A stretch of DNA of 64,000 bases. Source: Rhodanobacter sp. DHG33. GTDB taxonomy: Bacteria; Pseudomonadota; Gammaproteobacteria; Xanthomonadales; Rhodanobacteraceae. A program made the translations under genes and the position numbers. How positions within the stretch are numbered: position 1 is the stretch's first letter; each line of letters starts with the position of its first letter. Below are positions 4,262 to 16,352 of the stretch, one piece after another. Location: positions 124,001-188,000 of the forward strand of contig NZ_JACYXM010000002.1 of NCBI RefSeq assembly GCF_014843005.1, written 5' to 3'. The notes under the pieces are model-generated. The model saw only the letters and a list, made by a program, of their open reading frames with translations. It was not told where the DNA came from and made no database searches.

Positions 4262-4608
4262 CGTGATTCTCCAGGGAAGATTTTGCGATGTGGGGCATCG
4301 ACGGGGAGAAACGATGTTCTCCCACGCGGGCGGTCGCGACAAGCGCATCCGGCGTCGATGTGCTGTGGCAGGGCCAACATGGTCGAAGGAGGTCACATTG
4401 AGCGTCATTCCGCGCGCTTAATGCGCGATGTTGCTTGACGAGATGGCAGGCAGGCAGTAAACAGCAAGCCTTGCGCATCCTGCCGGAGAGTGGGTGTCGC
4501 GAAGTCGCAACAACAATGGTGTTTCTTGTCATGTAAGCCAGCGGCACGCTTGTTGCGTGCCTTAGCTCGGCAATCCTGGGCCCGCCGTTGGGCAACAGGG
4601 GGGGAGTG
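4262..4608. promoter_or_regulatory. 347-bp divergent control region between gshB and pilG
   Basis: No convincing gene. It holds a good sigma-70-like promoter facing pilG (listed separately), a GGCACGC-ttgtt-GCGTGCC stem-loop at 4543-4561 in the resulting leader, and a CGCGC...GCGCG inverted repeat near 4411-4427. I compared it by eye with a class-I c-di-GMP riboswitch, which would fit pilus genes, and did not see the conserved core. Confidence 0.5.
4435..4463 (+). promoter_or_regulatory. Candidate sigma-70 promoter for the pil-chp operon
   Basis: TTGACG at 4435-4440 and TAAACA at 4458-4463 are separated by exactly 17 bp and lie about 145 bp before the pilG start. The -35 matches consensus at five of six positions and the -10 at four of six. 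It is the best promoter-like pair in the gshB-pilG gap. Confidence 0.5.
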
Positions 4609-5013
4609 ATGAATTTGAACGCGAATGGTCTGGCCGGCCTGCGGGTCATGGTGATCGACGACTCCAAGACCATCCGCCGCACCGCGGAAACCCTTCTCAA
4701 GAAAGAGGGGTGCGACGTGTTGACCGCGGTGGACGGCTTCGAGGCGCTGGCCAAGATTGCGGACCAGAGGCCCGCCATCATCTTCGTCGACATCATGATG
4801 CCGCGTCTGGACGGCTACCAGACCTGCGCGCTGATCAAGAACAACCCGCAGTTCCGCGCCACGCCGGTGATCATGCTCAGCTCGAAGGACGGCCTCTTCG
4901 ACAAGGCGCGCGGCCGGGTCGTCGGTGCCGAGCAGTACCTCACCAAGCCATTCACGCGCGACGAGCTGCTTGGCGCCATCCATCATCACGTCAGCACGGT
5001 ATCGGGCGGCTGA
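4609..5013 (+). CDS. pilG: Twitching motility response regulator PilG
   Basis: A 134-aa single-domain CheY-like receiver, first gene of the Chp system that controls type IV pilus function. The receiver signature is complete: the acidic pair in MVIDDSKTIRRT, the phospho-acceptor Asp in IIFVDIMMPRLDGYQ, the Ser switch residue in VIMLSSKD, and the Lys in YLTKPF. In Pseudomonas, phospho-PilG promotes pilus extension and cAMP signalling. The ATG at 4609 follows a G-rich ribosome site; a TTG seven codons upstream is also in frame but less likely. pilH follows after 24 bp. Confidence 0.96.
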   Translation: MNLNANGLAGLRVMVIDDSKTIRRTAETLLKKEGCDVLTAVDGFEALAKIADQRPAIIFVDIMMPRLDGYQTCALIKNNPQFRATPVIMLSSKDGLFDKARGRVVGAEQYLTKPFTRDELLGAIHHHVSTVSGG

Positions 5014-5037: not shown

Positions 5038-5412
5038 GTGGCCGACATTCTCATCATTGACGACTCGCCGACCGACGTGCGCGTGCTGACCGCGCTGCTC
5101 GAGCGCGCGGGTCATCAGGTCGCTTCCGTCGGCAACGCCGAGGAAGGCATCGAGCGCGTGCGCAGCACGCCGCCGCCCGCGCTGGTCATCATGGACGTCA
5201 TCATGCCCGGCATGAACGGCTTCCAGGCCACCCGCACGCTCACCCGCGATCCGGCCACCGCCGAGGTGCCGATCGTGATGATCACCACCAAAGCCATGGA
5301 AACCGACCGCGTGTGGGGGCTGCGCCAGGGCGCGCGTGCCTTCATCACCAAGCCGGTGAACGAGGGCGAGCTGCTCGCCTGCATCAACCAACTGCTGTCG
5401 AGCGCGGCATGA
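5038..5412 (+). CDS. pilH: Twitching motility response regulator PilH
   Basis: A 124-aa CheY-like receiver that in Pseudomonas opposes PilG, as a phosphate sink or to favour retraction. Visible residues: the acidic pair in IIDDSPTDVRVL, acceptor Asp in LVIMDVIMPGMNGFQ, the Thr switch in IVMITTKA, and Lys in FITKPVN. It starts with GTG, preceded by a strong G-rich ribosome site. Its stop shares 4 bp with the pilI start. Confidence 0.95.
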   Translation: MADILIIDDSPTDVRVLTALLERAGHQVASVGNAEEGIERVRSTPPPALVIMDVIMPGMNGFQATRTLTRDPATAEVPIVMITTKAMETDRVWGLRQGARAFITKPVNEGELLACINQLLSSAA

Positions 5413-5954
5413 ACGCAACGTCCGGACTCACCCCGTTCGAAATACTGGCCCGCTACGAGCGGCTGTCTCTGGCGCATGCCTCGGATACCCGCGAGCGGAT
5501 GGACGCGCCCGGCCTGTGGCGCGGCATCGGCTACCGCGTGGGCTCGCGTACCCTGGTCAGCGAGATCGGCGAGATCAACGAACTGCTGGCGATGCCGACG
5601 CTCACCGCGGTGCCCGGCACGCGGCCCTGGCTGCTCGGCGTGGCGAACGTGCGCGGCAACCTGATGCCGGTGGTGGATTTCGGCCGTTTCCTGTTCGACG
5701 AGCGCACGCCGCTGACCGAACGCGCGCGCCTGCTGGTGGTGCGCCAGGGCGGCGGCAGCGTGGCTCTGCTGGTGGACGAAGTGTTCGGCCAGCGCACGGT
5801 AGACGAACAGCAGCGCCGCACGGCAGGGCAGGAAGAAGATCCGCGGCTGGCGCGCTTCGCCGAGCAGCGGGTGGGCGACGGCGAGCAGCAGATGGCGATA
5901 TTCAGCATGGGCAAGCTGGTGCGTGCCCCCGATTTCCGTCAGGCCGCGGCCTGA
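5409..5954 (+). CDS. pilI: CheW-like coupling protein PilI
   Basis: A 181-aa CheW-domain adaptor that links the receptor PilJ to the kinase ChpA. The N-terminus (FEILARYERLSLAHA) is typical of PilI. The CheW core includes LGVANVRGNLMPVVDFGRFL and LLVDEVFGQRTV. It is translationally coupled to pilH through an ATGA overlap. A 128-bp gap with an inverted repeat follows before pilJ. Confidence 0.93.
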   Translation: MNATSGLTPFEILARYERLSLAHASDTRERMDAPGLWRGIGYRVGSRTLVSEIGEINELLAMPTLTAVPGTRPWLLGVANVRGNLMPVVDFGRFLFDERTPLTERARLLVVRQGGGSVALLVDEVFGQRTVDEQQRRTAGQEEDPRLARFAEQRVGDGEQQMAIFSMGKLVRAPDFRQAAA

Positions 5955-6038: not shown

Positions 6039-6082
6039 GTAGTGCCGGGGCCGGTCCGGCGAAGCAGACGGGTGAGGTGAAC

Positions 6083-8113
6083 ATGAGCACTACAGGGGGC
6101 GTCGGCAAGGAGCGTGGGAATACCGCACTCATTGTCATGTTGCTGGTCGCGATCGGTTTTGCGGCCCTGGATTTCTGGCAGCTCAACGTGAAGAACGGCG
6201 AAGACCGCCAGGCCGTCGCGTTGACCACGCAGATCCAGGTGCTGTCGCAGCAGACCGCGAAATTCGCGCTGGAGTCGTCCGACGGCAACGCCGATTCGTT
6301 CAAGGAGCTGGAAAGCACCCGCAACGCGATCGACTCGGCCGTGCGCAAGCTGAACAAGGGCGATGCGACCACCGGCATGCATGCCTACGCCGACAACAAC
6401 ACGTCGCTGGTCGGCCGCGCCTACGGCTCGCTGGACGGCGCCTGGAAGCAGCTGGACGGCGACATCGGCAAGATCCTCTCGAACAAGTCCGTGGTGCTCG
6501 ACTCCGGCCAGAACGCGGCCACCGTGTCGCAGCAGATGCCGCTGCTCAACTCCAGCATGGAGCAGGTGGTCACCATCCTGCAGCAGCGCAACGGCAGCGC
6601 CGACCAGATGCTGGGCACCTCGCGCCAGATGCTGTCGGCCGACCGCATCATCCGCCGCGTGCAGGAAGTGCTGCAGGGCGGCGACAACGCCCAGGCCGCC
6701 GCCGACGGCCTGCAGCGCGATGCGCAGCAGTACGGCACGGTGCTGCAGGGCCTGATCCAGACCGACCAGAGCAGCGGCGTGAAGCCGATCGGCGACGCCA
6801 ACGCGCGCAAGATCCTCACCGACATGCAGGGCAACTGGGGCAAACTGGCCGACCCGCTGGCCAAGCTGGTGTCCGCTTCCGGCAACCTCGCCGCGGTGAA
6901 GCAGGCCGGCACCCAGGCTTCGCTGGACTCGCAGTCGGTGCTGCTGCGCGCCAACGACCTCGCCGACCAGATCGGCAAGCTGCCGCTGCGCCGCCTGTTC
7001 CCGAACGTGTGGTGGGGCCTGCTGGCCGCGATCGGCGCGGTGGCCTTCGCCCTGTTGCTGGTGGTCAGCCTGGTGCGCGACCAGCGCCGCCGTTTCGCCG
7101 AGTCCACCTCGCTCAACCAGCGCAACCAGGAGGCGATCATGCGCCTGCTGGACGAGATGGGCGCGCTGGCAGAAGGCGACCTGACGGTGAAGACCACGGT
7201 GACCGAGGAAATCACCGGCGCGATCGCCGACTCGGTGAACTACGCCATCGACGAGTTGCGCACCCTGGTGACCACGATCAACGAGACCTCCGAGCAGGTC
7301 TCTTCGTCGGCACAGGAGACGCAGACGACCGCGCGCCATCTGGCCGACGCGGCCGAGCAGCAGGCGCAGCAGATCAGCACCGCGACCAGCGCGATCAACC
7401 AGATCGCCAGCTCGATGGACCACGTGTCGAAGAACTCCGCCGAATCGGCCGACGTGGCCGAACGTTCGGTGCAGATCGCTTCGCACGGCGCCGAGGTGGT
7501 GCGCGAAACGATCTCCGGCATGGACTCGATCCGCGACCAGATCCAGGAAACCTCCAAGCGCATCAAGCGCCTGGGCGAGTCCTCGCAGGAAATCGGCTCC
7601 ATCGTGGAACTCATCAACGACATCGCCGAGCAGACCAACATCCTGGCCTTGAACGCGGCGATCCAGGCGGCCTCGGCCGGCGAGGCGGGCCGCGGTTTCG
7701 CGGTGGTGGCGGACGAAGTGCAGCGACTGGCCGAACGCTCGACCAGCGCCACGAAGCGAATCGAGACCCTGGTGCAGACCATTCAGTCCGATACCAACGA
7801 AGCGGTGAACTCGATGGAGCAGACCACCGCCGAAGTGGTGGCCGGTGCACGCAAGGCGGAGGACGCCGGCAGTGCACTGGGCGACATCGAGCGCGTGTCG
7901 CACGATCTGTCGGCACTGATTCAGAACATTTCCAGCGCGGCGCGGCAGCAATCGGCGGCGGCGACGGACATTTCGCAATCGATGAACGCGATCCGGGAAA
8001 TTACCTCGCAGACTTCGCAGGGTGCCAGCCGTACCGCCGATTCGATTGGTACGCTGGCGCAGTTGGCCAGCGACCTGCGTCGTTCGGTGGCCCACTTCAA
8101 GCTGCCGGGCTGA
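6083..8113 (+). CDS. pilJ: Type IV pilus methyl-accepting chemoreceptor PilJ
   Basis: A 676-aa membrane receptor with the PilJ layout: a TM helix near residues 15-32 ([17 protein letters not shown]), a periplasmic domain of about 270 residues, a second TM near 308-330, then a HAMP-like segment and a cytoplasmic signalling coil. The conserved hairpin tip is clear ([20 protein letters not shown], near residue 515-535). In Pseudomonas it senses pilin and surface contact. The ATG at 6083 is preceded by GAGGTGA; a GTG two codons upstream is less likely. In Pseudomonas the next gene is pilK, a methyltransferase; here only 82 bp separate pilJ from chpA. Confidence 0.95.
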
Positions 8114-8195
8114 TGCCTTGGCAGCGACATTTACTGACTGGGGGCAGTCTCGATGGTGGCGTGGCGATTCGCCGCGCAACCGCTGAGGGAAGTGC

Positions 8196-11100
8196 ATGAG
8201 ACTTCAAGACCACATCGATTTCACCACCCTCCAGTGGGTTCGTCCCGAACTGGAGCAGACCTTGTCGGACGCCCGCGAGTCGCTGGAGTCCTACGTCGAC
8301 AACCCGGCCCGCCAGGACGCCATGCGCGCCTGTGCCGACCACCTGCATCAGGTGCAAGGCACGCTGCGGATGGTCGAGTTGCCCGGGCCGGCCATGGTGG
8401 CGACCGAGATGGAGATGCTCGCCATCGCGCTGCTGGAAGGCCACGTCACGCAGCGCGAAGAGGCCTATGCCGCGCTGATGCGCGGCATGATGCAACTGCC
8501 CGACTATCTCGAGCGCCTCGCCGGCGGCCATCGCGACGTGCCGGTGGTGCTGCTGCCGCTGCTGAACGACCTGCGTGCCAGCCGTGACCAGGAAGCACTG
8601 ACCGAGGCGGCGCTGTTCCGCCCCAATCTCGACGCGTTCCTCCCCTCGCAGGCGCCGGCCGCCATGAGCGAGGCGCAGGCCGCGGAGCGCCGCGGCGAAC
8701 TCGCCGAACTGCGCCTGCAATTCCAGCAGCACATGCTGGCCTGGTTCCGTGGGCAGTCGCAGTCGTTGCCCAGCATGCGCAAGGCGCTGCAGGCGATCGC
8801 CGCGCGCTGCTATCACGTGCATGGACGGCGCCTGTGGTGGATCGCCGCCGGAGTGGTGGAAGGACTTGAGCACGGCATGCTGGGGGCGCACGCCACCGAG
8901 CTGCGCCAGCTGCTCGGCAAAGTGGATCGCCACATCCGCCAGCTGATCGAACAGGGCGAGGGCAGCCTGCGCGGCGGCGATGCCGACGACTTGTGCAACC
9001 GCCTGCTGTACATCGTGGCGCAGTCGCGCCAGCACAGCCCGCACATGGAGCTGCTGCGCCGTACCTACGCGCTGGACAGCCTGCTGCCCGACGCCGACGA
9101 ACTGGAACACGCCCGCGGCTCGATGGCCGGGCACAACCGCGCACTGCTCGATTCGGTGGCCAAGGCCCTGAAGGAAGACCTGCTGCGCGTGAAGGAAGCG
9201 CTCGACCTGTTCCAGCGCCAGCCGGGCGCCGATCCGGCTTCGCTGGCGCCGCAGTGCGAGCAGTTGGGTCGCGTGGGCGACACCCTGGGCATGCTGGCGC
9301 TCTCCGTGCCGCGCCGGGTGATCGAGGAACAGCGCCGCGTGCTCGAGGAGATCGTCGCAAAGCTGCGCCCCGTCGACGAGGAAAGCCTGCTCGACGTGGC
9401 CGGTGCGCTGCTGTACGTGGAAGCATCGCTCGACGACCACATCGAGACCCTCGGCGCGGGCGGGGAATTGCCGCACGAAGGCGATGCCGTCGCACCGGGG
9501 CTGCCGCGCAGCGAAGCGCAAAGCATCCTGAGCACCGTGATGCAGGAGGCGATCCGCAACGCCGAAAAGGTGAAGGAAGCCATCGTCGGTTTCGTCGAAT
9601 CCGGTTGGGACCACACGGGCCTGATCGAGGCGCCGGCCCGGATGAGCGAGATCGCCGGCGCCTCGCGCATGCTGTCCGCCGAGCGCCCGGCCGAGCTGGC
9701 CGAAGGCATCGGCCGCTTCATCCACAACGAGCTGCTGGTCGACCGTCGCGTGCCGAGCGGCGCGCAGATGGACCACCTGGCCGACGCGCTGGCCGCGCTG
9801 GAGTACTACCTGGAAGCGGCGCAGGAGCACCGCGGCGGCCTGGCGCACATCATCGACGTGGCCGAGCACAGCCTTGGCCAGCTCGGCTACTGGCCGTTGC
9901 CGGCCGAGCGCTCGCCGCTGCCGGGGGCATCCGCCGATGCGTCTGCGCACGACCGCGAAGGCGAAGCGCTGACCGAGTCGGTGAGCCTGTATGCCGGCAA
10001 TGACCCCAGCCATCTGTTTGTCGCACCGGAGACGCCGCGCGAAGTACCAGCGCACGACGTCGAAGGGCTGCGCTATGCGCAGACCGAACTCACTGCGCCG
10101 CCTGCCATGGCAAGCGAAGATGCGGACTGGATCGAGATCGAAGAGGAAATCGAAGAGCAGGTGCCGGCCAGCGGCGTGCTCGCCGAAGGCTTCCATTTCA
10201 ACCAGCATGCCGAGGGTATCGACGACGATATCCGCGAGATCTTCCTCGAGGAGATGCAGGAGGAGATCAACAACCTGCGCGGCGCCGAAGCCACCTGGCT
10301 GGCCGATCCCGCGCAGCTCGGAGCGCTGACACCTATCCGACGTTCCTTCCACACGCTCAAGGGTTCCGGCCGGCTGGTCGGCATCGCTGCGTTGGGCGAA
10401 TTCGCCTGGAAGGTGGAGGACATGCTCAACCGCGTGCTCGACCACACCATCGAGCCGCACGAGGGCGTGCAGGCACTGGTGCGCCATGCCATCGACGCGC
10501 TGCCGCAACTGCTGGGGTCGCTGAAGGGCGAAGGCGCGCCGCATGCGCCGGTCGAGGCGATCATGCAGACCGCCGGCAAGCTGGCCGCGGGCGACGCTAC
10601 CGCACGCATCGAGGATCACACGCCGGCCGCAACGGAAACCGTGCGCCGCATCGTGCGCCGCCGCGTGCCGCGGTTCGACGCCGCCGCCATTCCGTCCGCC
10701 GCCGTCGTCGATGCCCACAGCGTCGCCACGCCCGAGCCGGCCGAGCCGCTGGCAATGCTGGCCGTGTCGCCGCTGCCGTCGGTCGATCCGGTGCTTTTGG
10801 AAATCCTGCGCAGCGAAGTCGCGCAATACCTGCAGACCATCCGCACCGCGATCCATCGCGGCAGCGGCGAATTGCCGGTGAGCGAAGACCTGCTGCGTGC
10901 CGTGCACACCCTGCACGGCGCCATTGCGATGGTCGAGATTCCGCTGCTCACTCAGCTGCTGTCGCCGCTGGAGAGTCTGCTCAAGCGCGTGCGCCATGCC
11001 GGGCAGGCATTGCCGGTGGAAGGCGTGCGCCTGCTCGACCGTTCGGCCGACGTGGTCGACCAGACGATGGCCCAGTTCGACGTGGCCACGCCGCAGTTGC

Positions 11101-14100
11101 CCAACATCGACCAGCTCACGACGCAGCTGACCGAGCTGCGCGACCGCTATCCGGAGCCGTTGGTGGCGCATGTCGCCGCCGAGCACCATGCCGAACCCGC
11201 GTTGCCGCCGCTCGAGCATGCGGCCCATGCCGACGATGCGGCGACGAAGGAAGCTGGCGCGGACGAGCACGAGGCTGCAGCAGATCGTCCCGATCCGACG
11301 GAACAACCGGAGGAAACGGAGCGCCACGACGAGTACGCGGGGGCGCTGACGGCTGCCCTTGGCGCCTACGAGTTGCACGAGCACGAGGCGGCTCCGTCCG
11401 ATGAGGAAGCGGATCGCGCCGAGGCCGAACGTGCCGAAGCCGAGCAGCGCGCTCGCGAAGCCGCAGAGCAGGAGGCGGCTGAACGCGCCGCCGCCGAACA
11501 GGCTGCGCAGCACGCCGAACAGGAACGCCTGGAACAAGAGCGACTCGAACAGGAACGACTCGACCAAGAGCGTCTTGAGCAGGAGCGCGCCGAGCAAGAA
11601 CGTGCCGAGCAGGCGCGGCTGGCCCAGGAGCGCGCCGCTCGCGAAGCGGCGGAAGCGCAGATGCGCGCCGCGGCCGAGAAAGCGGCTGCCGAGCAGCGCG
11701 CCGCGGAAGCCGCCGCTGCCGAACAGGCGCGACAGGAAGCGGAACACGCCGCGGCCGAAGCCCGTCGCGCCGCGGCCGAAGCCGTGCGCGCCGCACCGGT
11801 CGTCGACGCCGCAGCCGCCCATTCGGACTTGCCGATCGACGCCGACCTGCTCGAGGTCTTCGTCGAGGAAGCGCGCGAAATCCTCGATCACGCCGACGGC
11901 GTGCTGGCGCAGTGGCATGCCGAGCCTGCCGCGGTCAGCCACCTCGGCGAATTGCAGCGCGACCTGCACACGCTCAAGGGCGGTGCACGCATTGCCGGCC
12001 TGATGCCGGTGGGCGATCTGTCCCACGCCATCGAGACGCTGCTGGAGAAGCCGGTGACCGGTGCGGCGCAGGCGATCCCGCTGATCGCCGTGCTGGAAAC
12101 CAACTTCGACCAGCTGCACACCATGGTGCAGCACGTGTCGCAGGGGCAGATGCCGGCTTACCCGCAGTCCGCCATCGATCACCTGCTGGCGCTGGCCGGC
12201 GAGCAGCAATTCGCCGATGACGCGACGCTGGCTGCCCGTGTGGTGACGCCGCCGGTGCAGCCTGCCACGGCCGTGCCGCTGCCTGAACTGCTGCCCGAAG
12301 AGCACGGTGCAGGCGCGTCCTCGGCGCAGGAACAGATCCGCGTCCGCGCCGAGCTGCTCGACAACCTGGTGAACCACGCCGGCGAAGTGGCGATCTACCG
12401 CTCGCGCCTGGAACAGCAGGTGTCCGGCTACCGCTTCAACCTGGTCGAACTGGACCAGACCGTGCAGCGTCTGCGCAGCCAGCTGCGCATGCTGGAAATC
12501 GAAACCGAGGCGCAGATCATCGCGCGCTTCCAGCGCGAACATCGCGAGGCCGGAAGCATCACCGCGTTCGATCCGCTCGAGCTCGACCGCTTCTCGCAGC
12601 TGCAGCAGTACTCGCGCTCGCTGGCCGAGTCGGTCTCCGACTTGGTGTCCATCCAGGGCGTGCTCGACGAATTGACCCGCCAGGCCGAAAACCTGCTGGT
12701 GCAGCAGTCGCGCGTCAGTACCGAACTGCAGGAAGGTTTGCTGCGCACGCGCATGCTGCCGTTCGACACCATGGTGCCGAACCTGCGCCGCACCCTGCGC
12801 CAGGCCGCGCAAGAGGAAGGCAAGAACGCCCAGCTCTACGTGGACGGTGCGCACGGCGAAATGGACCGCAACCTGCTCGACCGCCTCAAGGCGCCGTTCG
12901 AGCACATGCTGCGCAATGCGGTGGCGCACGGCATCGAGTCGCCGGAGGAACGCCGCAAGGCGGGCAAGCCGTCGGAAGGCGCGGTGCGCATCCGCGTGAC
13001 GCGCGAGGCCACCGAGGTGGTGGTGCGCGTGACCGACGACGGCCGCGGCCTCGACCGCGATGCCATCCGCAAGCGTGCGCTGGAACGCAGCCTCATCGCT
13101 GCCGACGCGCGCCTGAACGACGACCAGCTGCTCGGCCTCATCACCCAGCCCGGCTTCTCCACCGCCAGCACCGTCACCCAGCTCGCCGGCCGCGGCGTGG
13201 GCATGGACGTGGTGGCGAACGAGATCAAGCAACTGGGCGGTTCGCTGGCCATCGAGTCGCAACAGGGCAAGGGCACCACCTTCGTGCTGCGCCTGCCGTT
13301 CACCCTCGCGGTGACCCAGGCCATCCTGGTGCGCATCGGCGAGAACACCTTCGCGATCCCGATGACTTCGGTGCAGGGCGTGGCGCGCGTCGACGCCGAT
13401 GAACTGATCGCGCGCATGGCCGAACACGATCCCGTGTTCGATCACGCCGGCGGCCAGTACGGCATCCACGAATTGTCCGATCTGCTCGGCCTGCCGCCGG
13501 GTGCGGCGCCGGAAGGCGAACAGCCGCCACTGCTGCTCACCCGCGCGGGCGACCTGCGTGCGGCGATCCGCATCGACGCGGTGCTGGGTTCGCGCGAAAT
13601 CGTGGTGAAGTCCGTCGGCCCGCAGGTGAGTTCGGTGCCGGGCGTGCTGGGCGCCACCATCATGGGCGACGGCTCGGTGCTGGTGATTCTCGACCTGGCT
13701 CCGCTGGTCCGCCACGGCATCGCGCGTCGCGAGCAGCGCCTGGCGGACGGCATCACCGCGATCGACTTGCCGAAGGTCGAGGAACAGCGCGAACGGCCGC
13801 TGGTGATGGTGGTGGACGATTCGATCACCATGCGCAAGGTCACCGGCCGCGTGCTGGAGCGCCACGAATACGAAGTGGGCACGGCGAAGGACGGCGTGGA
13901 CGCGCTGGAGAAGCTGCACGAGCGCGTGCCCGACCTGATGCTGCTGGACATCGAGATGCCGCGCATGGACGGCTACGAGCTGGCCACCCACATGAAGGCC
14001 GACCCACGCCTGCGCGACGTGCCGATCATCATGATCACCTCGCGCACCGGCGAGAAGCACCGCCAGCGCGCATTCGACATCGGTGTGGACCGCTACCTCG

Positions 14101-14198
14101 GCAAGCCGTACCAGGAAGCCGAGCTGCTGGCGCAGATCACGGAGGTGCTGGAGCAGCGCGCCGCCGAGCAGGCTGCGCAGGAGTCGCACCATGGCTGA
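8196..14198 (+). CDS. chpA: Hybrid chemosensory histidine kinase ChpA (PilL type)
   Basis: A 2000-aa CheA-type kinase that phosphorylates PilG and PilH. Clear phosphotransfer His sites with an H-x-x-x-G core are H51, H719, H904 and H1258. Two similar segments have Tyr206 (YHVHG) and Ser484 (SEIAG) at the acceptor position, recalling the Ser/Thr transfer domains described for Pseudomonas ChpA. A Glu/Ala-rich coiled-coil linker occupies about residues 1068-1198. The kinase core follows: dimerisation helices near 1380-1540, N-box near 1568 (MLRNAVAHGIESPEER), G boxes (DDGRGLD, GRGVGMDVV), a CheW-like domain near 1705-1850, and a C-terminal receiver with acceptor Asp1918. The start follows GAGGGA. 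The stop overlaps the next gene by 8 bp. Confidence 0.96.
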   Translation: MRLQDHIDFTTLQWVRPELEQTLSDARESLESYVDNPARQDAMRACADHLHQVQGTLRMVELPGPAMVATEMEMLAIALLEGHVTQREEAYAALMRGMMQLPDYLERLAGGHRDVPVVLLPLLNDLRASRDQEALTEAALFRPNLDAFLPSQAPAAMSEAQAAERRGELAELRLQFQQHMLAWFRGQSQSLPSMRKALQAIAARCYHVHGRRLWWIAAGVVEGLEHGMLGAHATELRQLLGKVDRHIRQLIEQGEGSLRGGDADDLCNRLLYIVAQSRQHSPHMELLRRTYALDSLLPDADELEHARGSMAGHNRALLDSVAKALKEDLLRVKEALDLFQRQPGADPASLAPQCEQLGRVGDTLGMLALSVPRRVIEEQRRVLEEIVAKLRPVDEESLLDVAGALLYVEASLDDHIETLGAGGELPHEGDAVAPGLPRSEAQSILSTVMQEAIRNAEKVKEAIVGFVESGWDHTGLIEAPARMSEIAGASRMLSAERPAELAEGIGRFIHNELLVDRRVPSGAQMDHLADALAALEYYLEAAQEHRGGLAHIIDVAEHSLGQLGYWPLPAERSPLPGASADASAHDREGEALTESVSLYAGNDPSHLFVAPETPREVPAHDVEGLRYAQTELTAPPAMASEDADWIEIEEEIEEQVPASGVLAEGFHFNQHAEGIDDDIREIFLEEMQEEINNLRGAEATWLADPAQLGALTPIRRSFHTLKGSGRLVGIAALGEFAWKVEDMLNRVLDHTIEPHEGVQALVRHAIDALPQLLGSLKGEGAPHAPVEAIMQTAGKLAAGDATARIEDHTPAATETVRRIVRRRVPRFDAAAIPSAAVVDAHSVATPEPAEPLAMLAVSPLPSVDPVLLEILRSEVAQYLQTIRTAIHRGSGELPVSEDLLRAVHTLHGAIAMVEIPLLTQLLSPLESLLKRVRHAGQALPVEGVRLLDRSADVVDQTMAQFDVATPQLPNIDQLTTQLTELRDRYPEPLVAHVAAEHHAEPALPPLEHAAHADDAATKEAGADEHEAAADRPDPTEQPEETERHDEYAGALTAALGAYELHEHEAAPSDEEADRAEAERAEAEQRAREAAEQEAAERAAAEQAAQHAEQERLEQERLEQERLDQERLEQERAEQERAEQARLAQERAAREAAEAQMRAAAEKAAAEQRAAEAAAAEQARQEAEHAAAEARRAAAEAVRAAPVVDAAAAHSDLPIDADLLEVFVEEAREILDHADGVLAQWHAEPAAVSHLGELQRDLHTLKGGARIAGLMPVGDLSHAIETLLEKPVTGAAQAIPLIAVLETNFDQLHTMVQHVSQGQMPAYPQSAIDHLLALAGEQQFADDATLAARVVTPPVQPATAVPLPELLPEEHGAGASSAQEQIRVRAELLDNLVNHAGEVAIYRSRLEQQVSGYRFNLVELDQTVQRLRSQLRMLEIETEAQIIARFQREHREAGSITAFDPLELDRFSQLQQYSRSLAESVSDLVSIQGVLDELTRQAENLLVQQSRVSTELQEGLLRTRMLPFDTMVPNLRRTLRQAAQEEGKNAQLYVDGAHGEMDRNLLDRLKAPFEHMLRNAVAHGIESPEERRKAGKPSEGAVRIRVTREATEVVVRVTDDGRGLDRDAIRKRALERSLIAADARLNDDQLLGLITQPGFSTASTVTQLAGRGVGMDVVANEIKQLGGSLAIESQQGKGTTFVLRLPFTLAVTQAILVRIGENTFAIPMTSVQGVARVDADELIARMAEHDPVFDHAGGQYGIHELSDLLGLPPGAAPEGEQPPLLLTRAGDLRAAIRIDAVLGSREIVVKSVGPQVSSVPGVLGATIMGDGSVLVILDLAPLVRHGIARREQRLADGITAIDLPKVEEQRERPLVMVVDDSITMRKVTGRVLERHEYEVGTAKDGVDALEKLHERVPDLMLLDIEMPRMDGYELATHMKADPRLRDVPIIMITSRTGEKHRQRAFDIGVDRYLGKPYQEAELLAQITEVLEQRAAEQAAQESHHG
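11515..11625 (+). repeat. LEQER-type pentapeptide repeat inside chpA
   Basis: About seven imperfect 15-bp units encode LEQER-like pentapeptides within a longer Glu/Ala/Arg-rich, predicted coiled-coil linker between the N-terminal phosphotransfer domains and the last Hpt. Repeat number could vary between strains by slippage. Confidence 0.7.
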
Positions 14199-15840
14199 AG
14201 CGCTGCCCGCGGTGGCACTCCTGTTCGATGATGCCGCACTGGGCAGCCATCTGCGCGAGGCGCTGCAGGAGCGCGGCGCGCGCATCGTGCACGAGGGCAA
14301 TGTTGCGGGTTTCGACAGCGCGTTGCTGCGGCAGCTCGATCCGGACGTGCTGGTGGTGAACCTCGACGAGGACGACGACGAATCCTTCGAGCGCCTGTTC
14401 GGCATGATCGAGGGCGAGCGTCCGCGGCTGGTGCTCAACGATGCCCGTGCCAGCCATGCGCTGGCCGGTTGGGACCGTGCGCGCTGGGCGCGCCATCTGG
14501 CGATGAAGGTGCTGGCGAGCGGCGACGTGGATCCGCCGCGTCCGGCGGATGCATTGGCGGTCGAGACGGTGCCTACGGTGGCGGCTCAGGTGGCCGAACC
14601 CGTCGCGGCTTTTTCGCCGGAAGCGGGCTCCGACATGCCGCTCTCCGACGATCATCCGGATCACGCCGCTGAAGAGCCGGCAGCGCAAACCCTCGCTGCA
14701 TCGAACGACCTGGAAGCTGAGCTGGCTGCCTTGCTTGCCGAACCGGCTCCGGCGGACCCGTCGGGCGCCGAGCTGGCCGCGCATTCCGGCCCGGGCGACG
14801 AATCCGTGGCGCACCACCTCGAAGTCTCGGCCGGCCTCGAGGCGGAACTCGCCGCGCTGCTCGCCAAAGATGAATCGCTGTTGCCGGAAGAAGAGCCTGC
14901 CCCGGTTGCCGTACGCGATGAACTGCCGCTGCACGATGGCGATTTCAGTTTTGCGCTGCACACTGGCGACGAACATGCCGCTGCCCAAACCGCACCCCCG
15001 CCGGTGCGTGCCGAAACAGCCAAGGCGCCTTCGGTGCCCGACAGCTGGGCGCTGGTCGACCATGACGCGGCCGCCCACGAAAACGCCGAGCCTGAGGAAG
15101 CCGCCAACTTCGGCGTCCAGAAGCTGAGCGCCGCCGATTTCCTTGCGCCTGACGTCGAGCCCGCCGAGGCGGAATTCCAGCCGACGATGAGCCTGGAGCT
15201 GGTGTCGATGGAGGAGGCCGTGGCGCCGCGCGCCTGGGAGCAGCAATCCTCCAACGAGATGCTGCTGGACGACCTCGGCAACGCGCTCAGCCGCGTGGTG
15301 CTGCTGGGAGCGGCGGTCGATGGCCTGGATTCGGTTTGCGCATTCCTGGCGAGCCTGCCTGCTTCCGCGGGGCACACGATTCTGCTTACCCAGCATTTCG
15401 GCACGCAGCCGGCCGAGGCGGTGCTGGAGCGTCTGTCGAACCATTCCAGCTTGCCGATACAGCTGGCGAAGCACGGCAGCCGCGCGCGCCGTGGCGAAGT
15501 GCTGCTGGTGCCGGCGAGTGGCCAGGTGCAGCTGCGCCGCGACGGTCGGGTCGAATTGCGCGAACACGGCGAAGACCGCGAGCCGTCGATCGACACCAGC
15601 TTCACCATGGCGGCGAACGCCTTCGGGCGCGACGCGCTGGGCATCGTGTTCGCCGGCCGCTCCACCGACGCCGTGGCGGGTTCGCAGGCGATCCATGATC
15701 GCGGCGGCCAGGTGTGGGTGGAGTCCGCCAACGGCGAACACTACGCCGACATGGTCAGCGGCATCTTCGCCGAACGGCTGGTGAGCTATTCCGGAACGCT
15801 GCACGAACTGGCAGCGCATCTGATCGAGGTCTATCCATGA
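14191..15840 (+). CDS. chpB: CheB-like protein (ChpB position) lacking the catalytic serine
   Basis: A 549-aa protein. Residues 1-110 resemble a degenerate receiver (LVVNLDEDDDES at the usual Asp strand). About 110-360 is an acidic, Ala-rich, low-complexity linker with two copies of the motif LEAELAALLA. About 365-549 aligns along its whole length with the CheB methylesterase domain. CheB enzymes use a Ser-His-Asp triad within GASTGG, QHM and GMGxDG. Here these read GAAVDG (Ala375 at the Ser position), TQHFG (His402 kept) and GRSTDA (Asp493 kept). Methylesterase activity is therefore unlikely, and a structural or binding role is inferred. It overlaps chpA by 8 bp and chpC by 4 bp. Confidence 0.85.
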   Translation: MAEALPAVALLFDDAALGSHLREALQERGARIVHEGNVAGFDSALLRQLDPDVLVVNLDEDDDESFERLFGMIEGERPRLVLNDARASHALAGWDRARWARHLAMKVLASGDVDPPRPADALAVETVPTVAAQVAEPVAAFSPEAGSDMPLSDDHPDHAAEEPAAQTLAASNDLEAELAALLAEPAPADPSGAELAAHSGPGDESVAHHLEVSAGLEAELAALLAKDESLLPEEEPAPVAVRDELPLHDGDFSFALHTGDEHAAAQTAPPPVRAETAKAPSVPDSWALVDHDAAAHENAEPEEAANFGVQKLSAADFLAPDVEPAEAEFQPTMSLELVSMEEAVAPRAWEQQSSNEMLLDDLGNALSRVVLLGAAVDGLDSVCAFLASLPASAGHTILLTQHFGTQPAEAVLERLSNHSSLPIQLAKHGSRARRGEVLLVPASGQVQLRRDGRVELREHGEDREPSIDTSFTMAANAFGRDALGIVFAGRSTDAVAGSQAIHDRGGQVWVESANGEHYADMVSGIFAERLVSYSGTLHELAAHLIEVYP

Positions 15841-16352
15841 GTGACGAGTTGCCCCGCGAAATCCGCTGCGTGCTGGTGCCGGCCGGCAGCCTGCGCCTGC
15901 TGCTGCCCAACACGACCGTAGCCGAAGTCATCACCCAGCCCGCCCACGAATCCGTGGAGGATGCGCCCGAGTGGCTGCTTGGCCGCTTCGCCTGGCGCGG
16001 CTGGCGCGTGCCGCTGGTGTCGTTCGCGCGCCTGGCGGGTGCGGGCGAGGGCGATGCCGAACTCACCGTGCGTGTCGCCGTGCTGAAGGCGCTGGGCGGG
16101 CATCCGAAAATGCCGTTCATCGCCGTGCTCACGCAGGGTTTCCCGCGCCTGACCACGCTCAACGCCGAGCTGATCATCCCCACCCACGATGGCAACGAGC
16201 TGCCGCCGGGCGTGCGCGCGCAGGTGCTGGTGCGCGACGACGTGGCCGTGATCCCCGACCTCGAAGGCATCGAGGCGGAGCTGGTGCAACTGCTGGCGCT
16301 GGACAAGCCGGAAGAACACGGCGAGCCGGAAGCGTTGGACGGCACCGCGTGA
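15837..16352 (+). CDS. chpC: CheW-like protein ChpC
   Basis: A 171-aa CheW-domain protein, second adaptor of the Chp system; in Pseudomonas ChpC is thought to link extra receptors to ChpA. The core shows LLGRFAWRGWRVPLVSFARL, equivalent to the G-x-x-x-x-RG-x-x-x-P region of CheW. It starts in the ATGA shared with the chpB-like gene. Its stop overlaps a GTG that opens a 53-codon ORF. Confidence 0.9.
   Translation: MSDELPREIRCVLVPAGSLRLLLPNTTVAEVITQPAHESVEDAPEWLLGRFAWRGWRVPLVSFARLAGAGEGDAELTVRVAVLKALGGHPKMPFIAVLTQGFPRLTTLNAELIIPTHDGNELPPGVRAQVLVRDDVAVIPDLEGIEAELVQLLALDKPEEHGEPEALDGTA

Follow-up and report, generated by a model that had tools for sequence, protein, structure and literature searches.

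Why would a Pil-Chp operon keep a full-length methylesterase homologue whose catalytic serine is gone? The question is raised by chpB of Rhodanobacter sp. DHG33, a single open frame of 549 amino acids in the 64,000-nucleotide stretch analysed here (the window; forward strand of contig NZ_JACYXM010000002.1, positions 124,001 to 188,000), where it forms part of the operon pilG-pilH-pilI-pilJ-pilL-chpB-chpC. In our assessment the window ChpB is probably a pseudo-methylesterase, retained in the PilJ-ChpA array for something other than catalysis, and we infer that it serves there as a scaffold.

The CheB domain of ChpB lacks its nucleophile

The gene and the C-terminal features discussed here lie in the window as follows.

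14191..15840, + strand: chpB, probable pseudo-methylesterase of the Pil-Chp operon, 549 amino acids (open frame, Pfam CheB_methylest E 4.5e-27, place in the operon)
14527..15288, + strand: long linker rich in Ala, Glu, Asp and Pro (AlphaFold2 (AF2) model, substitution rates)
15289..15837, + strand: CheB-fold domain without the nucleophile, residues 367-549 (Pfam, phmmer, comparisons of the AF2 model)
15307..15324, + strand: GAAVDG instead of GxSxGG; codon 375 (15313-15315) is gcg, Ala (translation, alignments)
15394..15396, + strand: His402, the retained triad histidine (hidden Markov model (HMM) alignment)
15667..15669, + strand: Asp493, the retained triad aspartate (HMM alignment)

The Pfam CheB_methylest match covers residues 370-544 and the whole profile (positions 1-174 of 174), and a phmmer comparison with PDB sequences aligns GASTGG of the CheB structure 1chd to G373-A374-A375-V376-D377-G378, which places Ala375 at the nucleophile. 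The nucleophilic serine of GxSxGG is thus absent from the GAAVDG of the window protein; in the HMM alignment, His402 and Asp493 occupy the columns of the two other triad residues. An earlier note on this DNA had claimed just this, namely that the CheB homologue of the pil-chp operon has Ala375 in place of its catalytic serine and retains the other two triad residues; Pfam, phmmer and the HMM alignment bear out the loss, and the HMM alignment the retention. Two of the cases that the note had named as refuting it are also excluded. No alternative serine is aligned to the nucleophile position in the HMM alignment, by phmmer or in the AF2 model, and a misalignment is rejected on these same grounds and by the fold matches given below. 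A base error at codon 375 is rejected because the congeners lack GxSxGG too: the seven same-genus loci, the window included, read GAAV, GAAT, GATS, GASA, GAAA, GATT and GATT, each followed by D-G or E-G and never by G-G, so that GxSxGG occurs in none of the seven and the serine alone is kept in one. That the window ChpB would be inactive as an esterase is well supported by these sequences.

The full-length AF2 model was built from the window protein together with 35 of 80 relatives from named genomes (the best 80 of 361, nearly all Xanthomonas, Stenotrophomonas or Pseudoxanthomonas) and has a predicted template modelling score (pTM) of 0.43; ten-residue means of the predicted local distance difference test (pLDDT) are 60-95 in the CheB part and mostly below 50 in the linker. 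Residue 375 is flanked in the model by a strand (369-374) and a helix (376-388), and the best matches of the modelled CheB domain are 3sft (Z 21.5 over 178 residues) and 1chd (Z 20.0 over 181), with Foldseek TM-scores by target length of 0.81 and 0.74, respectively. The model supports the view that the CheB fold is kept despite the dead site.

Purifying selection on the dead domain is likewise supported, as judged from the ratio of nonsynonymous to synonymous substitution rates (dN/dS, Nei-Gojobori) over the last 185 codons, taken as the CheB domain. A site was scored as intact if it had the His, the Asp and GxSxGG, the first two letters of which were allowed to vary somewhat. The ratio is 0.07-0.33 in 16 pairs with broken sites from the window's family (f1, which we take to be the Rhodanobacter-Dyella-Luteibacter family), 0.08-0.34 in five broken pairs from Xanthomonadaceae (f2) and 0.19-0.24 in three intact pairs; in the linker it is 0.12-0.36 over 24 pairs. 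We also compared 42 members of the window's clade in the ChpA tree (see below) with 42 intact relatives, six loci with divergent sites (L069, L078, L079, L081, L083 and L084) having been set aside beforehand. The triad His is present in 41/42 members of the window clade and the Asp in 42/42. Gly377, Pro379 and Gln414 are invariant in the intact relatives and variable in the window clade, where Ser488 has become Ala in 41/42 and Gln511 has become Glu in all 42. Conversely, R450, D451, Q499, A500, D503 and E528 are invariant in the window clade and variable in the intact relatives, a list that may overstate the gain, given the broader intact set and the six loci set aside. With the site gone across the clade, the fold apparently kept and the domain apparently under purifying selection, the description of ChpB in the earlier note as a conserved, full-length but inactive esterase stands.

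Loss of the site goes with the absence of PilK

The remaining genes of the operon, and the place where a methyltransferase gene would be expected, are the following.

4588..5013, + strand: pilG (Response_reg, gene order)
5038..5412, + strand: pilH (Response_reg, gene order)
5409..5954, + strand: pilI, CheW-like (Pfam)
6077..8113, + strand: pilJ, methyl-accepting receptor (Pfam MCPsignal and PilJ)
8114..8195, + strand: gap between pilJ and pilL, the place of pilK in PilK-bearing relatives and too small for pilK here
8196..14198, + strand: pilL/chpA, CheA-type kinase (Pfam)
15837..16352, + strand: chpC, CheW-like (Pfam)

Flanked by chpA/pilL and chpC within a pilGHIJ-chpA operon, chpB has the place of a ChpB gene; it shares 8 bases with the end of pilL/chpA and 4 with the start of chpC. 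No CheR-type frame lies within the Pil-Chp locus, where 77 bases separate the last pilJ codon from the start of the pilL open frame, and the window ChpB has no same-operon PilK methyltransferase to act against. In a Pfam profile search of the genome, pilJ is the sole match to PF00015 (methyl-accepting chemotaxis proteins, MCP) and pilL/chpA the sole match to PF02895 (CheA-type kinases). The genome's one CheR match lies on another contig (G000:C11), adjoining a second CheB that has kept its serine. The CheB of this pair (G000:C11:358701-359863; L001, L003) reads GCSAGG, although the genome has a single MCP match.

To place the window among its relatives, 398 genomes of the order were searched at the protein level, and 304 gave matches. 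We read 60 loci of the window's family, 20 of Xanthomonadaceae, 20 others of the order taken by family or genus and 40 from outside the order, in addition to the 80 from named genomes; as L108 is L204 and L111 is L246, the 220 loci are 218 distinct ones. The loci outside the order were drawn from the better-scoring of the 140 class genomes (of 274) with a ChpA match, three of the 140 belonging to the order, and the loci read were hand-picked, with an eye to their spread and to sufficient contig around them, and are not a random sample.

The site is intact in 29 of the 30 PilK-bearing loci, the thirtieth (L134, outside the order) having a frame break across it. PilK is absent from 185 loci in which the pilJ-pilL interval is in view, 162 in the order and 23 outside. 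Among the 162, 147 have a broken site, 11 an intact one, two a ChpB without a CheB domain and two no chpB; the site is thus broken or its domain missing in 149 of the 160 that keep chpB, and intact in 11, nine from two genera of the window's family and two from a third family. The place of pilK is out of view in five more loci, four broken and one intact. The two loci without chpB (L172 and L173, from the two genomes read of genus g6 in the window's family) have neither chpB nor pilK and keep chpC. Ser has become Gly in 80/80 of the named Xanthomonadaceae loci, and the nucleophile column of the window's family holds Ala, Thr, Ser, Gly or Glu, its broken sites also lacking the Gly-Gly of the loop. 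Of the 23 PilK-less loci outside the order, 22 also lack chpB; the remaining one is L153, where chpB is intact and the pilK-like frame next to it spans only 161 amino acids. In the loci read outside the order, then, pilK and chpB share one fate, with L153 as the exception; in the order chpB mostly stays and decays. Since 11 loci of the order are intact without PilK and no decayed site stands beside an intact PilK, the frame break in L134 excepted, PilK was probably lost before the site decayed.

Two side observations concern the loci outside the order. The frame at L153:6878-7360 is similar to PilK (50 bits) and is probably a broken pilK. In 22 of the 40 Pil-Chp loci there, pilK and chpB are both missing (L122, L125-L127, L129, L130, L133, L135, L136, L139-L148 and L150-L152), and chpC was found in 21 of these; methylation-free Pil-Chp systems may be common.

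CheR enzymes encoded elsewhere were searched for in 80 genomes, 27 of which have no CheR match at E 0.001. Among the loci read, CheR hits were confirmed in L088 and L089. Fifteen of the 27 have a broken ChpB (one of them, G382, without a CheB domain), nine an intact one and two none, and in one (G342) the locus was not read. As the 15 combine a broken ChpB with the lack of a CheR match, no known CheR-type enzyme would make methyl-glutamate in them.

A tree of the ChpA kinase with 102 rows (quick search, branch support by the Shimodaira-Hasegawa-like approximate likelihood ratio test (SH-aLRT) only; ten of 112 rows, near duplicates and long outgroup rows, were left out by hand) has broken sites in five places: the Xanthomonadaceae clade, L163 (family f6), L164 (genus g14), genus g23 and the large window clade. 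None of its 19 rows with PilK is broken (L134 is not in the tree), and 72 of the 83 rows scored PilK-less are, or 70 of 81 without L078 and L096, both broken and cut before the place of pilK. The sisters of the Xanthomonadaceae clade (L159-L161) have PilK and an intact site, and genus g23, in which the CheB domain is gone, neighbours L162 with PilK and an intact site (SH-aLRT 80). By parsimony at least five motif changes, with or without the genus g6 rows, and at least six PilK changes are needed. What is left of the site differs by lineage: His and Asp in the window clade, Gly-Gly-Pro in Xanthomonadaceae and a lone Ser in L163 and L164. This distribution suggests five separate site losses in the order, that of Xanthomonadaceae being apparently separate from that of the window clade. 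Loss of the site affects whole lineages across the order and accompanies the absence of PilK.

The N-terminal half is a probable pseudo-receiver with a conserved helix patch

Two features make up the N-terminal half as far as the linker.

14191..14526, + strand: putative pseudo-receiver domain, about residues 1-112, with Asn57 at the phospho-acceptor column (AF2 model with pLDDT 83 and pTM 0.77, fold matches, residues by group)
14467..14508, + strand: helix patch GWDRARWARHLAMK, residues 93-106, the best-conserved stretch of the N-terminal half in the order (residue conservation)

The domain was modelled alone by AF2 with 31 of the 80 named relatives. Its best match is the receiver protein 4b09 (Z 12.3), and the CheB receivers 6ymz and 3t8y follow at Z 10.8 and 9.9; flavodoxins, Piwi proteins and other unrelated folds match similarly, at Z 9.4-10.1. 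The window ChpB thus combines a receiver-like domain with a CheB fold, the receiver part resting on a model that other folds match at similar Z. The earlier note had called this receiver degenerate, and so it appears: Pfam Response_reg has no match in the N-terminal domain, the fifth receiver strand is absent from the model, and the phospho-acceptor Asp is replaced by Asn57. This degeneracy is common to PilK-bearing ChpB proteins and not specific to the window case, the same column in the PilK-bearing rows outside the order holding Asp in 9/16 and Asn in 6/16.

The helix patch is more constant. R98, W99, R101, H102 and K106 are each found in 58/59 rows of the window's family, the remaining row being a gap, and in 101/101 Xanthomonadaceae rows not scored as PilK-bearing; W94 is found in 57 and 101 of these rows, respectively. 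W99 occurs in 14/16 and K106 in 15/16 of the PilK-bearing rows outside the order. In two loci of genus g23 (L154:13255-14367 and L167:13278-14606) ChpB consists of the N-terminal half and the linker, with the chpC frame overlapping its end, and the CheB HMM, run over the frames of at least 60 amino acids in both loci, gave one chance-level hit only (E 9.5, elsewhere in L154). Of the single observations, these two loci hint most clearly that the N-terminal half carries the retained job.

A probable non-catalytic role in the PilJ-ChpA array

The ancestral ChpB may have removed methyl groups from PilJ, and perhaps deamidated it, as the counterpart of the methyltransferase PilK. Loss of PilK would have come first, leaving PilJ unmethylated in the present case; with selection on the esterase site gone, the site would then have degenerated independently in a number of lineages of the order, ChpB being kept for a non-catalytic job in the PilJ-ChpA-ChpC array. 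This job might be one of position or structure, at the leading pole for example, and would fall chiefly to the N-terminal pseudo-receiver and its R98, W99, R101, H102 and K106 patch, the dead CheB domain acting in the window clade as a second binding module.

It is possible that the esterase domain is instead a decaying remnant, held in place by gene coupling or because too little time has passed. The overlapping genes would agree with this, as would the decay in several lineages, the missing CheB domain of L154 and L167 and the absence of chpB from L172 and L173; yet the low dN/dS of the dead domain, the retention of ChpB across many genera and the six residues that are invariant only in the window clade, though the comparison set is more diverse, make it unlikely. 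Another possibility is a domain that binds methyl-glutamate without cutting it, PilJ being methylated by another CheR, here that of G000:C11. The earlier note had proposed a scaffold or methyl-glutamate-binding role, and it is the scaffold that fits; binding of methyl-glutamate is the less likely half, with no pilK here and 15 CheR-less genomes that have a broken ChpB. It retains one opening in the window genome, in its single CheR, and would draw on the CheR-CheB pair, on the His402 and Asp493 kept in the window clade and on the consensus sites kept in PilJ: the window PilJ has three matches to the methylation consensus, a count that is one in all 13 PilK-bearing PilJ and zero in 79 of the 162 PilJ of order loci not scored as PilK-bearing, many of them close relatives. 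Besides the 15 genomes, however, the His and Asp are mostly lost too in Xanthomonadaceae, and Gly377, Pro379 and Gln414 are free to vary in the window clade, and we give such binding little credence. The near-constant His and Asp of the window clade might even point to an enzyme with an unusual nucleophile or a shifted serine, but a nucleophile column that accepts five different residues, a loop without Gly-Gly in the broken proteins of the window's family and a difference at the nucleophile between close sisters (Thr in L036, Ser in L037) render this very improbable.

Several observations count against a non-catalytic part as the explanation. The three consensus matches of the window PilJ and the second CheR-CheB pair, with its serine intact, are two of them. 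Nine CheR-less genomes keep an intact ChpB, and the absence of PilK thus does not force decay; a site can survive intact in a genome that lacks CheR altogether, for instance if the enzyme serves as a deamidase or has had too little time to decay. In a sign test on independent pairs, two to three of four agree with the association and none is opposite (median p 0.25, not significant), where significance would need at least six pairs differing in site. Neither assays nor data on interactions or localisation came to light for the window ChpB or its close relatives, and the Xylella phenotype described below comes from a species whose ChpB sequence lies outside the loci read.

We nevertheless favour a pseudo-methylesterase kept for a non-catalytic job. 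More tentatively, and as a proposal that may well prove wrong, Pil-Chp in much of the order would have dropped receptor methylation several times and reused ChpB as a fixed structural or polarity part with the pseudo-receiver as its core, the dead esterase of the window clade having gained a new binding surface (R450, D451, Q499, A500, D503 and E528). Literature searches of titles and the opening parts of abstracts, with full texts searched for it no further than the passages cited, turned up no report of a ChpB that lacks the catalytic serine. Pil-Chp, which steers twitching motility, is generally presented as a chemotaxis system with a methylation memory, and a large bacterial group that includes Xanthomonas and Stenotrophomonas seems to operate it with a dead ChpB and no PilK in the operon. 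This makes two questions testable, what ChpB does apart from removing methyl groups and whether adaptation is required for twitching in the first place, and calls for caution in annotation, Pil-Chp genes of the order that match the CheB methylesterase family being unlikely to encode esterases in most loci read.

Other observations on the loci

Between pilG and pilI, pilH, which may be lost or too divergent, went undetected in L073-L075, L085, L091, L097, L098, L103, L112 and L156-L158, among others. In L076 (3745-10439) pilL/chpA is split over two overlapping frames. L219 (JAHREJ010000001.1) has a pil-chp locus resembling that of Stenotrophomonas under the title Bacillus subtilis, and the record is probably mislabelled or contaminated.

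Comparison with known systems

In Pseudomonas aeruginosa, chpB follows chpA in the operon. The ChpB of that species belongs to the same system, and in a review it is described as a response regulator/methylesterase whose receiver is thought not to be phosphorylated, as denser at the leading pole in a PilG-dependent manner and, with PilK, as necessary for PilJ methylation (PMC12632253); the window lacks both the serine and PilK. Sixteen PilK-bearing loci outside the order with an unbroken ChpB keep Ser-His-Asp, P. aeruginosa not being among the loci read by name. According to two further papers, deletion of chpB leaves twitching in P. aeruginosa but abolishes its direction (PMC10896506), and in X. 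fastidiosa it lowers twitching (PMC9956873, in whose main text the word pilK does not occur). If the Xylella protein resembles the 80 named family relatives, the latter phenotype would belong to a dead ChpB. Genus g53 (G054, G353) was considered as Xylella and dropped; its two ChpB are 38% identical and its loci have 62-66% G+C.

Flagellar CheB proteins (1a2o, 1chd, 3sft and 6ymz) have the same C-terminal fold and a receiver-like N-terminal domain; unlike them, the window ChpB has no nucleophilic serine, Gly-Gly loop or phospho-acceptor Asp, and has a long linker modelled at low confidence. The pseudo-receiver of FrzS, a social-motility protein of Myxococcus xanthus, has a receiver fold that matches the N-terminal model at Z 9.4-9.6, as one of many equal-Z matches that include unrelated folds; FrzS works without phosphorylation and is not known to have a CheB domain. 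The ChpB of Xanthomonadaceae (Xanthomonas, Stenotrophomonas and Pseudoxanthomonas) likewise lacks an operon PilK and its catalytic serine and has the same GW..RW.RH patch, but it differs in having Gly for Ser, in keeping the Gly-Gly-Pro loop and in having mostly lost the His and Asp that the window clade retains.

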